Assembly (NCBI GenBank): GCA_903913215.1
Contig: CAIWKE010000003.1
Location: 62,001-126,000, forward strand
Source of the DNA: an uncultured Holophagaceae bacterium
GTDB lineage: Bacteria; Acidobacteriota; Holophagae; Holophagales; Holophagaceae
Length of the DNA stretch: 64,000 bases
Direction of reading: 5' to 3'
Shown here one piece after another: positions 54,386-58,370 of the stretch. The notes beneath the pieces were generated by a model that was not told where the DNA came from, searched no databases, and worked only from the letters and a program-made list of their open reading frames with translations. How positions within the stretch are numbered: position 1 is the first letter of the stretch; the number at the start of each line of letters is the position of its first letter. The position numbers and the translations under genes were made by a program.

Positions 54386-54430
54386 GAGGGCTGTATCCGA
54401 GAAGAGGATCAGCCCTCTTATTTGTTTTTT
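54386..54430 (+). terminator. Terminator after SRAP gene
   Basis: GAGGGCTG and CAGCCCTC arms (54386-54393, 54410-54417) with a T-rich tail containing seven T in a row. The flanking 54355-54494 is far more AT-rich than the rest of the window, with no gene recognised. Confidence 0.75.
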
Positions 54431-54494: not shown

Positions 54495-55568
54495 ATGCGC
54501 TTGGCCCTCTCTCTGATTCTTTTTGCCGCGCCTCATGTCGGGCGCGGCGCCACGTTGGGCTCCCCACCTCCTCCGATCCCAGTCCAGACCGCCGCAGGCC
54601 CCAGCCTTGATACCGCTCGAGCCCTCCATGCCTCGGGAGCCCCCGATGGGGATTCTGAAACGCAGGGACCCGATTTGGCCCCAAGCTCGACCCAGAGTGA
54701 GCTCCTTTACTTTGAGAAGGGGAAGGCCGAATTAAGTAACGCGGGGAAGGAGAAACTCGCAGCCTGGGTCGATGCATGGGGCGCCTCAGGAGTCTGGTTC
54801 GTGCTCACCTCCAAGGAGGATGAGCCCTCGGCGGCCCTGGCCCAGGCTCGATTTGATACGGTGGAATTGATCCTGAGGAGGCTCTCGGTGCTACGGGTGG
54901 AGCATCGGCCTACGCTCAAAGCCATTCCCGGGAAATTCGATGCCATCCGGATTGGCAAAACAGCTGCCCCCCCCCTGGGACCAGGATCCTCCGCAGGAGC
55001 AGAAGCTTCGGATCCAGCTGCATCGTTGAATGGACGGAGCCGTTCATGGGTTGGGATGGGGCTCCAACTCGGCCTGATTTCAGCCACCAACAATGGTTCC
55101 AGTACCACCACGGGCTATCTGCCGAATGGGGCCTTGGGCCTGCATGTCGATTGGGGACTGACGCCCCAGTGGACGTTGCGGCCACGGGCGGAAGCCTGGT
55201 ACTTCTCCAAGGAGCGCCAAGAGGCGGCGACCTTCATCGGAAGCCAGGTGATCGAATCGAGAAAGGTTGCCGGCCTCATCGGCGCGGATCTGCTCTACGC
55301 ACACAATGCAACCACACGATGGAAACTGGGCGCTGGACTGTATTTGGCTCACTGGAAGATGGACAGCAAAAACTCTATCCAGGCTTCGGATGGGTCGACG
55401 ATCGCCTCCGCTGGTTCCACCGTCTGGGACCGTCCGGCCTACAGCTTCATCAGCACCCTGCGCCTCTCCCCTGCCCTCGAGGGAGAACTTCGCTGGGTCA
55501 CCAGCCAGTACGGCTATGAGAATCAACCCGTTCATGTCATGGCCCTGTCCTTGTTCTGGAAGTTCTAG
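54495..55568 (+). CDS. Outer-membrane beta-barrel protein with degenerate OmpA-like segment
   Basis: 357 aa. Signal peptide (LALSLILFAAPHVGRGA), a Pro/Ser-rich linker, then LLYFEKGKAELSNAGKEKLAAW, which resembles the start of an OmpA C-terminal domain but lacks the usual downstream peptidoglycan motif. From about residue 180 there are alternating hydrophobic strands (WVGMGLQLGLISATNN, ALGLHVDWGLTPQWTLRPRAE) ending in ALSLFWKF, consistent with an eight-stranded barrel and terminal Phe. First gene of a three-gene group with a lipoprotein and a collagen-like protein. Family not recognised beyond this fold. Confidence 0.75.
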   Translation: MRLALSLILFAAPHVGRGATLGSPPPPIPVQTAAGPSLDTARALHASGAPDGDSETQGPDLAPSSTQSELLYFEKGKAELSNAGKEKLAAWVDAWGASGVWFVLTSKEDEPSAALAQARFDTVELILRRLSVLRVEHRPTLKAIPGKFDAIRIGKTAAPPLGPGSSAGAEASDPAASLNGRSRSWVGMGLQLGLISATNNGSSTTTGYLPNGALGLHVDWGLTPQWTLRPRAEAWYFSKERQEAATFIGSQVIESRKVAGLIGADLLYAHNATTRWKLGAGLYLAHWKMDSKNSIQASDGSTIASAGSTVWDRPAYSFISTLRLSPALEGELRWVTSQYGYENQPVHVMALSLFWKF

Positions 55569-55576
55569 GAATTCCC

Positions 55577-56110
55577 ATGCCCCTTCCTCCCTTCAAAAGC
55601 TGGTTGCAGTTCCTGGCATGGCCACTGCTCCTGGTTCCTCTGCTCGTCTGTGGCGGCTCGACGCAAAAAAGTGGGGACCAGCCAGGCAATCTCAACAGCG
55701 CCTTAACCATCAGCCCCCAGAACCCCGTGCTCTATGTCGGGAAGACACAAAAATTCACGGCAATCAGCCCATGGGGCAGCGGCGCCACCTGGGCGGTCGT
55801 GCCAGCCTCGGGCGGCACCTTTTCCGACGATGGGAGCTTCACGGCCACCGGCGTCAATGGAACCTACCAGGTGGTGGCCATGTGGAAAAACGATGTCCGC
55901 TACACGGCGACGACCAGCCTCAGCCTGGTGGACCCGCCCAAGCCTCTCACCACGGATCCTACGATTCTGCAGGCCTCCGGTGGCATCCAGGCGGCGGCGG
56001 GCATCCAGACCTCGGCCGTCGTGGGCGAGGTCACCTCGGCAAAGACCTCCAGGGACTCCTCGGGCTCCATCGAGGTCCGACACGGGTTTGCCCCACCCAT
56101 CGCGCCCTAA
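55577..56110 (+). CDS. Predicted lipoprotein with Ig-like domain
   Basis: 177 aa. Signal sequence with lipobox LLVCGGS gives a lipidated Cys near residue 25. Residues ~45-120 form a bacterial Ig-like (Big2-type) module: LTISPQNPVLYVGKTQKFTA, GATWAVVPASGGTFSDDGSF, then a NGTYQVVAMW strand. The C-terminal ~55 residues are low-complexity with Ala/Ser/Thr. It begins 8 nt after the barrel gene and 41 nt before the next gene. Probably a surface or periplasmic adhesive or structural protein; function not identified. Confidence 0.75.
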   Translation: MPLPPFKSWLQFLAWPLLLVPLLVCGGSTQKSGDQPGNLNSALTISPQNPVLYVGKTQKFTAISPWGSGATWAVVPASGGTFSDDGSFTATGVNGTYQVVAMWKNDVRYTATTSLSLVDPPKPLTTDPTILQASGGIQAAAGIQTSAVVGEVTSAKTSRDSSGSIEVRHGFAPPIAP

Positions 56111-56151
56111 TCCAACCCTGCCTGCCCTTCCTATCCGGCTCTGAGGCTCCC

Positions 56152-57924
56152 ATGCGTCCACGCTTCCTCTCCCCTGCCCTTTCTGCCGTCCTGTCCCTCA
56201 CCTGGCCCCTGCTGGGGGTGACGGCACCGCTCGGAGCCGCAAGTTCCTCCAGCGCCTCACAACCTCCGCATCTGGCCTACCAGGGACGCCTCCTAGAAAA
56301 GGGCCTGCCTGTCAATGACACCCGATCCTTCACCTTTGTGATCCTCTCTGGATCAGGGGCAGAGGTATGGAATTCCGGACCTCAGACACTGAATGTCAAT
56401 GGAGGGCTCTACTCTGTTGTCCTTGGATCGTCCGGCATGCCCGAGATCCCGGCCAGCCTTCTCGCCGATCAGGATTTGAAGCTCCGCGTCTCCATAGGCG
56501 GGGTCCTGCTCAGTCCGGACATGGACCTGCTCCCGAGCCTCCAGGCCCAGTCTGCAGCCACCGTCACCGGCGAATTCGATGGGGAGATCAAGGGCAATCA
56601 AAACCACATGCAGGTTGTGGGACTCATGGGCTACGAACTGGATTTCACCCAGGTGCCTGGGAATGGCTATGGGCTTCTCTTCAACGGCAAAAAGTGGATG
56701 GCCGGCCTGATTCCAGGCACACCTGGGGCAACGGGTCCTGCCGGTCCTGCGGGGGCGGTGGGTCCTGCCGGTCCTACAGGGGCGGTGGGTCCTGCCGGTT
56801 CTGCGGGGGCAACGGGTCCTGCGGGTGGCGTGGGGGCCACGGGTCCCGCAGGACCGGCAAGCCAAAGCCCCTTCACGATGAACGGAACCAACGCGGTGAT
56901 CACCACCGGATCGGTGGGGATTGGAGTGAGCCCCCCGGATGCCTCGGCAGCCCTGGAGGTCAGTTCCACGACCAAGGGCTTCCTGTGCCCCCGTATGACT
57001 CTGGCCCAGCGAAGCAGCCTCTCCTCCCCTGCGGAGGGCCTTCTCGTCATCCAGACGGACGGGCTTGCCGGCATCTACCTGTATCTGGGGGGCAGCTGGA
57101 ATTTGCTCAACGTCTCCCCGGAGGTCCCCCACTCGACCACCTTCACCTACGTGGGAACTCCCCAGACTTTCACGGTACCCGCCGGGGTCACTCAGCTTCA
57201 AATCGATTGCTGGGGCGCCCAGGGTGGAAACAACCCGAGCTCGCCTCCCAGCAACGGCAACTACGACTCCTGGGGCGGCCTTGGGGGCTATGCGAAAGGC
57301 TCCCTACCCGTCACTCCGGGGCAGATCCTCAACGTCTATGTCGGGGGCCAACCCACCACGGATAACACGCCGCAGGCCTACCACGCAGCGGGATGGAACG
57401 GCGGGGGCCAGGGTTGGAGTGTCATCACCGGAGGCGGCGGCCAGGGTGGTGGTGGCGCCTCAGATGTTCGACAGGGGGGCACCACCCTGGCCCAGCGCGT
57501 CATCGTCGCCGGTGGCGGGGGCGGATGCACGATTCCCTGGTATCTCGGCAACTCGACGGGCGGCGCTGGCGGTGGTTGGGTTGGCCTCAACGGGTCAGAT
57601 CCGGGAACCAGTACCTACCAGATCGCCACCTGTGGATCCGGGGGAAGCCAGCTGGCGGGCGGGTCCACCGGAGTCGGCGGCAGTGTGGGAATCCATCCTG
57701 CTACGACCGCGGCGTTTGGCGTGGGCGGCGATGCCGTGAGCACTGCCACCGGGTCCGGCACCTACGGAGGTGGTGGCGGTGGCGGCGGATACTATGGCGG
57801 CGGTGGCGGCGACAGCACCGGCGGCGGGGGTGGAGGAGGCTCAGGGTACGTCGGCGGAGTCAAAGGCGGAGTCCTCGGCGTCGGCGTTCAAACCGGCCAC
57901 GGCAAGGTGGTCATCAGCTGGTGA
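56152..57924 (+). CDS. Secreted collagen-like protein with tail-fibre-like N-domain and poly-glycine C-domain
   Basis: 590 aa from ATG 56152 (GAGG upstream). Signal peptide, then a domain HLAYQGRLLEKGLPVNDTRS with GGLYSVVLGS typical of tail-fibre-type surface proteins (~38-185). Residues 189-236 are 16 uninterrupted Gly-X-Y triplets, mostly GPA, GAT, GPT. About residue 262, ALEVSSTTKGFLCPRMTLAQ matches a module found before trimerised fibre ends. From ~331 comes a glycine-rich domain (VYVGGQ, GGGASDVRQGG, VIVAGGGGG, then runs of seven or eight Gly) resembling the poly-glycine-II domains of Gly-rich proteins and ALK-type receptors. Likely a surface fibre or adhesin. Confidence 0.85.
   Translation: MRPRFLSPALSAVLSLTWPLLGVTAPLGAASSSSASQPPHLAYQGRLLEKGLPVNDTRSFTFVILSGSGAEVWNSGPQTLNVNGGLYSVVLGSSGMPEIPASLLADQDLKLRVSIGGVLLSPDMDLLPSLQAQSAATVTGEFDGEIKGNQNHMQVVGLMGYELDFTQVPGNGYGLLFNGKKWMAGLIPGTPGATGPAGPAGAVGPAGPTGAVGPAGSAGATGPAGGVGATGPAGPASQSPFTMNGTNAVITTGSVGIGVSPPDASAALEVSSTTKGFLCPRMTLAQRSSLSSPAEGLLVIQTDGLAGIYLYLGGSWNLLNVSPEVPHSTTFTYVGTPQTFTVPAGVTQLQIDCWGAQGGNNPSSPPSNGNYDSWGGLGGYAKGSLPVTPGQILNVYVGGQPTTDNTPQAYHAAGWNGGGQGWSVITGGGGQGGGGASDVRQGGTTLAQRVIVAGGGGGCTIPWYLGNSTGGAGGGWVGLNGSDPGTSTYQIATCGSGGSQLAGGSTGVGGSVGIHPATTAAFGVGGDAVSTATGSGTYGGGGGGGGYYGGGGGDSTGGGGGGGSGYVGGVKGGVLGVGVQTGHGKVVISW
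56716..56859 (+). repeat. In-gene tandem repeat encoding collagen-like triplets
   Basis: 144 bp in the previous gene encode 16 Gly-X-Y triplets. At DNA level there is a 27-bp unit beginning GGTCCTGCCGGTCCT that recurs at least three times with few changes, suggesting unit duplication and possible length variation between strains. Confidence 0.85.
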
Positions 57925-58256: not shown

Positions 58257-58297
58257 TCCAGTCAAAAAGGCCCCGCAAGCGGGGCCTTTTTGACTGG
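58257..58297 (-). terminator. Terminator after tRNA-Thr
   Basis: CCAGTCAAAAAGGCCCCGC and its complement GCGGGGCCTTTTTGACTGG form a perfect long hairpin directly after the tRNA on the minus strand; the TTTTT lies in the 3' arm. The stem overlaps the tRNA's CCA end. Confidence 0.82.
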
Positions 58298-58370
58298 AGC
58301 CAACTACAGGATTCGAACCTGCGACCTGCTGATTACGAATCAGCTGCTCTACCAGCTGAGCTAAGTTGGC
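58295..58370 (-). tRNA. tRNA-Thr (anticodon CGT)
   Basis: Read on the minus strand from 58370: acceptor GCCAACT, D-arm with AGCTCAGCTGGTAGAGC, anticodon arm CTGAT-TCGTA-ATCAG with anticodon CGT (reads ACG), T-arm GCAGG-TTCGAAT-CCTGT, acceptor AGTTGGC, discriminator T and encoded CCA. All stems pair. 76 nt including CCA. Immediately followed by a terminator; no other tRNA is linked. Confidence 0.97.

Follow-up and report, generated by a model that had tools for sequence, protein, structure and literature searches.

How an adhesin with a constant base and exchangeable tips is kept at the cell surface is a question raised by the MAT fibres of Bdellovibrio bacteriovorus, a published superfamily of this design, whose authors left open what holds the fibres on the cell (PMC10769870). 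We meet this question in a three-gene locus, encoding a predicted small outer-membrane barrel, a putative Ig-like lipoprotein and a collagen-like fibre with a glycine-rich tip, within a 64,000-nucleotide stretch of DNA from an uncultured Holophagaceae bacterium of the phylum Acidobacteriota (contig CAIWKE010000003.1, positions 62,001 to 126,000; hereafter, the window). Based on the recurrence of this gene order, on the homology of the fibre base and on the modelled fold of its tip, we consider it rather probable that the fibre is a collagen-stalked trimeric adhesin of MAT type, which the neighbouring lipoprotein holds on the outer membrane, with the barrel as an optional helper.

The initial annotation had described three consecutive genes (barrel, Ig-like lipoprotein and collagen/glycine fibre), and the reading frames support it: the three open reading frames (ORFs) are open, lie on the same strand and are separated by gaps of 8-41 bp. 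The fibre starts at the ATG at 56152, the ORF that begins with the TTG at 55267 being a mere in-frame extension of it. The genes and their parts are the following:

54495-55568 (+): barrel gene, 357 aa, with a signal peptide, an OmpA-C-like N-terminal half and a C-terminal barrel
55056-55565 (+): C-terminal barrel domain (about residues 188-357), ending in LSLFWKF
55577-56110 (+): lipoprotein gene, 177 aa, with a signal carrying a weak lipobox (LLVC), an Ig-like domain and a conserved C-terminal tail
55955-56098 (+): conserved C-terminal tail of the lipoprotein (TILQASGG..VVGE..IEVRHGFAPP), a candidate fibre-docking element, from an alignment of 79 lipoproteins
56152-57924 (+): fibre gene, 590 aa, with a Sec signal peptide followed by a mosaic fibre
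56260-56706 (+): fibre N-domain, ~150 residues, a distant homologue of Bdello_MAT_N (hhalign)
56716-56859 (+): collagen-like stalk of 16 Gly-X-Y triplets
56860-57105 (+): neck module (GIGVSPPDASAALEVSSTTKGFLCPRMT..), read from the sequence and present in paralogues too
57130-57921 (+): glycine-rich tip with a predicted ALK/LTK GRD fold (PF12810, profile, AlphaFold2 model and structural match)

The fibre N-domain is present in 44/77 genomes of the window's family and, in the fetched loci, the lipoprotein lies directly upstream of 67 of the 83 N-domain matches (<=600 bp away and on the same strand); the others are for the most part fragments, fibres at contig ends or the later members of tandem arrays. 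The barrel precedes the lipoprotein in 30/67 of these units and is absent from 37/67. When sought in other genomes, the full trio was found at 30 loci of the family, including a second one in the window's own genome (contig C34), a recurrence which argues against a chance arrangement. The same genome also has a pair of lipoprotein and fibre on contig C7, and another fibre locus on C13. Since the barrel is missing from 37 units, we take it as accessory and the lipoprotein and fibre as the constant core, and this lipoprotein-fibre unit is well supported. The contigs C7 and C13 (loci L018 and L019) end within collagen-type fibre genes, so that fibre copies are probably under-counted in the draft genomes of this group.

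The kinship with the MAT superfamily lies in the fibre base. The MAT N-domain has been described as a conserved, beta-rich domain of ~130 residues found directly after the signal peptide (PMC10769870), and the N-domain of the window fibre occupies the same position. In a profile-profile comparison (hhalign) between the four N-domains of the window's genome and 22 N-domains from Bdellovibrionota, all of which match the NCBI model NF053851 (Bdello_MAT_N), a probability of 94.5% was obtained (E 8.2e-8), against at most 2.6% for column-shuffled controls and 0.1% for unrelated alignments. Additionally, NF053851 has matches among the fibres of further families of the phylum (best E 1.7e-8), and a profile seeded from one such fibre and grown over the window's family recovers every one of the six MAT N-domains of B. 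bacteriovorus kdesi, with E values from 1e-8 to 8e-16. Given these matches, together with a profile-profile result above its shuffles, the homology between the two N-domains can be considered solid. On the window fibre, NF053851 scores 13.4 bits (E 0.049), below its curated cut-off of 60 bits, and it exceeded this cut-off in 0 of the 297 genomes sampled in the phylum; because of this score, the window fibre is classed, as judged by this model, as a relative within the MAT superfamily and not as a member of the Bdello_MAT_N subfamily. The likeness to the MAT fibres of B. bacteriovorus extends to the overall design (a fibre of great length, several paralogues per genome and C-terminal tips that can be exchanged, S74 among them), whereas the window-family fibre differs in its collagen stalk, in an N-domain far under the Bdello_MAT_N cut-off and in being encoded with a lipoprotein and often with a barrel.

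In the lipoprotein, it is the C-terminus that is conserved. Across 79 aligned matches, the last ~50 residues are common (LVQASG.QQ.GG...N..VVGE.VPA.......VRHGF.PP), while the N-terminal domain varies, with at least three Ig-like types distinguishable by eye. The Ig-like part of the initial annotation fits this family: the window copy has no Pfam match, and its C34 paralogue matches Big_2 (E 1.1e-4) just under the cut-off (22.6 vs 22.8 bits). The lipoprotein part fares less well in the window itself, where the lipobox is weak (PLLV-C instead of L-[AG]-C, the latter or a similar form being found in most rows of the family). Six relatives without the tail are followed by no fibre; Ig-lipoproteins joined to an FGE-type domain (E 5e-44) are among the tail-less cases. 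Among the loci selected by their barrel, a small set, and the only one free of the bias that fibre-based selection brings to the table over all loci, a fibre comes after 30/31 tail-bearing lipoproteins and after 0/4 tail-less ones (Fisher p 1e-4). Since the presence of the tail tracks a following fibre, we put forward the tail, as a hypothesis, as the best candidate for contacting the fibre by docking onto the N-domain.

On the reading that we favour, the signal peptide would export the fibre and the collagen stalk would trimerise it, with the glycine-rich tip of ALK-GRD type facing outside, towards a presumed target. The N-domain would remain at the outer membrane, where the lipoprotein from the adjacent upstream gene would hold it, most likely by means of the conserved C-terminal tail, with the Ig-like part acting as a spacer. 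The small barrel, found in about half of the units, could aid in placing or stabilising the lipoprotein-fibre complex and would not be the export pore. The collagen repeats and the signal peptide are pointers, albeit suggestive ones, to a trimeric surface fibre, and the assignment of the trio to the cell surface in the initial annotation is probably right.

A different role had initially been assigned to the barrel, namely that of true anchor or export gate, with the lipoprotein as assembly helper (compare two-partner or trimeric-autotransporter secretion). That this protein is an outer-membrane barrel is suggested by its homologues, 40/42 of which end in F, with a terminal strand of the ..LLWRF type that is typical of such barrels; on the window barrel, the Pfam family OMP_b-brl stays sub-threshold (E 0.065), no match was found among Protein Data Bank (PDB) sequences, and single-sequence AlphaFold2 gave a poor model (predicted local distance difference test, pLDDT, of 35). 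The fixed order of barrel, lipoprotein and fibre in 30 loci speaks for an anchor or gate, as does the barrel being the only gene common upstream of all trios, and in some barrels the N-terminus is lipoprotein-like, with Pro/Ala linkers. Nevertheless, the lipoprotein-fibre pairs, 37/67 units, lack not only the barrel but any other common upstream gene, and trios and pairs are intermixed across the N-domain tree, the barrel having been gained or lost repeatedly. Moreover, the barrel domain covers about 168 columns of the family alignment, in roughly eight alternating stretches, which would be consistent with a small, closed barrel of OmpA size; being too small, it is unlikely to act as a classic secretion pore. 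With the barrel absent from so many units, we regard its role as anchor or secretion gate as improbable. In five loci (L150, L151, L132, L129 and L130), a long stretch rich in Pro/Ala extends the barrel at its N-terminus and in places comes after a signal resembling that of lipoproteins (e.g. LLLLGCPSSSGG); these barrels are possibly lipid-anchored, to judge from the signal.

The barrel could also serve the lipoprotein and not the fibre. In E. coli, OmpA/OmpC bring RcsF to the outer face; by analogy, the barrel would bring the lipoprotein to the outer face of the membrane and the fibre would dock on the displayed lipoprotein, with the pair-only loci using a shared barrel in trans. The barrel is indeed nearly always beside the lipoprotein and occurs also with fibre-less Ig-lipoprotein-FGE fusions (L156, L158), so that it follows the lipoprotein, not the fibre. 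Such an escort would leave aside the extra OmpA-C-like half of the window barrel (about residues 66-152, recognised by eye and by the strand/helix order of the poor model), which is not seen in most other barrels, and we consider it rather unlikely. A 220-aa homologue of this half is encoded elsewhere in the window's genome (L020, contig C37, 3057-3719, minus strand), and it is a stand-alone gene in many genomes of the genus. At L156 (3832-5757), L158 (2504-4450) and L159 (4455-6299), the gene after the barrel encodes an Ig-lipoprotein that is joined to an FGE-sulfatase (SUMF1-like) domain (Pfam for L156 and L158) and lacks the VRHGF tail, and the fibre is missing; in these loci, the barrel and Ig module appear to be reused for another surface protein.

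Returning to the fibre held by its lipoprotein, the distal parts agree largely with what had been annotated. Exactly 16 Gly-X-Y triplets were counted in the stalk, as claimed, and a Gly-X-Y run follows the N-domain in 80/80 fibres examined (with only 3 triplets in the shortest case). The glycine-rich domain had been assigned to the poly-glycine-helix class, which is borne out through an ALK/LTK GRD fold: the tip matches PF12810 (ALK_LTK_GRD) with E 3.7e-25 and 89.8 bits (gathering cut-off 24.5), and a profile built from the window tip and nine viral relatives retrieves PDB chains of ALK, LTK and scd-2 (best E 7e-9). Structure prediction from that alignment (AlphaFold2, pLDDT 73.6, predicted template modelling score 0.77) gave a model which superposes on the LTK/ALK ectodomain with a Z score of 15.9 (root-mean-square deviation 3.2, 194 residues aligned, LTK 7nx0_B), and on the cyanophage Pam3 fibre and the Bxb1 tail tip with Z 10.3. 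Published structures of the class, that of phage gp38 among them (PMC12892980), are the basis for the link to poly-glycine-II packing; gp38 itself was absent among the structural matches of the model. According to this model, the tip has an ALK-type glycine-rich fold, which is also found at phage fibre ends. Thus the window tip resembles the glycine-rich (TG) domain of ALK/LTK in sequence and predicted fold, but it is a bacterial fibre tip and theirs an animal receptor ectodomain. Bacterial collagen-like proteins such as BclA share the Gly-X-Y stalk, and three paralogous fibres have BclA_C, whereas the window fibre has a Gram-negative outer-membrane setting and a MAT-type base. Pfam matches on 52 tips comprise the S74 chaperone (18), NHL (5), GRD (4), Collar (3), BclA_C (3), CBM5/12 (3) and others including fn3, so the fibres of the window's family share the MAT design, with a constant base and mosaic, exchangeable tips. 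Several proteins with repeated GRD domains, some with two per protein, are encoded on a viral contig (L321, 160-4748).

The presence of GRD, S74 and Collar, all phage fibre domains, together with the match of the tip to Pam3 and Bxb1, invites the view that the fibre is a captured tail fibre, left over from a phage or from a phage-like tail. The tail-fibre-like module of the initial annotation stands in this limited sense: like Pam3, Bxb1 and, as members of the poly-glycine class, S16/PP01 gp38, the window fibre carries such a fold in the receptor-binding position. Its base domain, however, differs from theirs and groups with Bdellovibrio MAT, and is probably not phage-derived. Searches of 2.9 million viral contigs, 50,697 phages and 72,556 plasmids, at a sensitivity suited to close relatives, gave no match to the N-domain, for which reason the base is probably cellular in origin and a phage origin of the whole fibre is disfavoured. 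In addition, the fibres carry signal peptides and no phage genes lie beside the locus, and we judge a captured tail fibre very improbable.

Partner genes were encountered beside MAT-type fibres outside the window's family as well. In other families of the phylum, an iterated hidden Markov model (HMM) located a 54-residue motif (SASYxL..GG..SxSFxL..iGea..SxSFxL..GF) in a small exported protein adjoining the fibre, in 16/40 loci, on the fibre's strand in 16/16 and just upstream in 10. In Bdellovibrionota, reading of the loci placed a small lipoprotein just upstream of 14/34 MAT genes (L281, L282, L283, L289, L294, L297, L303, L305, L308, L310, L311, L314, L315 and L316), one of these genes belonging to B. 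bacteriovorus kdesi. An automatic lipobox count likewise gave 14/34, against 6/37 in its own background (p 5e-4), with two spurious loci (L290, L313) and two missed (L281, L314); in high-GC loci this count cannot be relied upon, since long ORFs on the antisense strand take the place of real genes, and HMM counts were used there. Among 1409 Bdellovibrionota ORFs, the best match to the motif profile is the 107-residue lipoprotein of L289 (E 0.008), and the Bdellovibrio tails align to the motif by hhalign with E 0.029, above 100/100 shuffles. We tentatively propose, as possible though still short of probable, that a neighbouring lipoprotein or exported motif protein is a widespread anchor in at least two phyla, its short beta-rich motif docking the fibre N-domain at the outer membrane, and that this is the surface element left open by the MAT authors.

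Several points weigh against the lipoprotein as anchor, both here and in these other groups. Besides the weak lipobox of the window copy and the small size of the one unbiased tail table, only 1/6 of the MAT genes found in B. bacteriovorus kdesi adjoins a lipoprotein, so a neighbouring anchor is not universal. The family tail resembles the 54-residue motif weakly (E 0.007 and a probability of 5.5% by hhalign, albeit better than 100/100 shuffles), and the Bdellovibrio tails do not beat shuffles when compared with the family tail. An HMM of the family tail found nothing significant in the other groups.

Within the library searched, no paper linking MAT-type fibres to a lipoprotein was found. A constant partner gene, recurring in dozens of genomes, offers a named and testable candidate for what holds these fibres on the cell. 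If this is true, MAT-type exchangeable adhesins would not be confined to Bdellovibrio-like predators, and they could bear an animal-receptor-like (ALK) fold at their tip.

As for the origin of the locus, the AT-rich upstream DNA had been read as a hint of acquisition. It is an intergenic stretch of 157 bp with 39% GC and no evidence by itself, since it holds the following feature:

54402-54419 (+): terminator-like hairpin of the upstream gene

Downstream of the fibre, at a distance of 370 bp, there is a tRNA-Thr (CGT; 58295-58370) with its 3' end towards the trio. Integration of the trio at this tRNA was considered and set aside, no copy of the tRNA end having been seen on its flanks. The G+C content at third codon positions is 0.68-0.80 in the trio, against 0.85-0.90 in three neighbouring genes, and in one relative (L333) the slot bounded by the same SRAP-like upstream gene and the same tRNA-Thr is occupied by another small gene and is not a clean empty site. 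The lower third-position G+C and the differing slot gene keep acquisition in view, and the trio may have arrived laterally.

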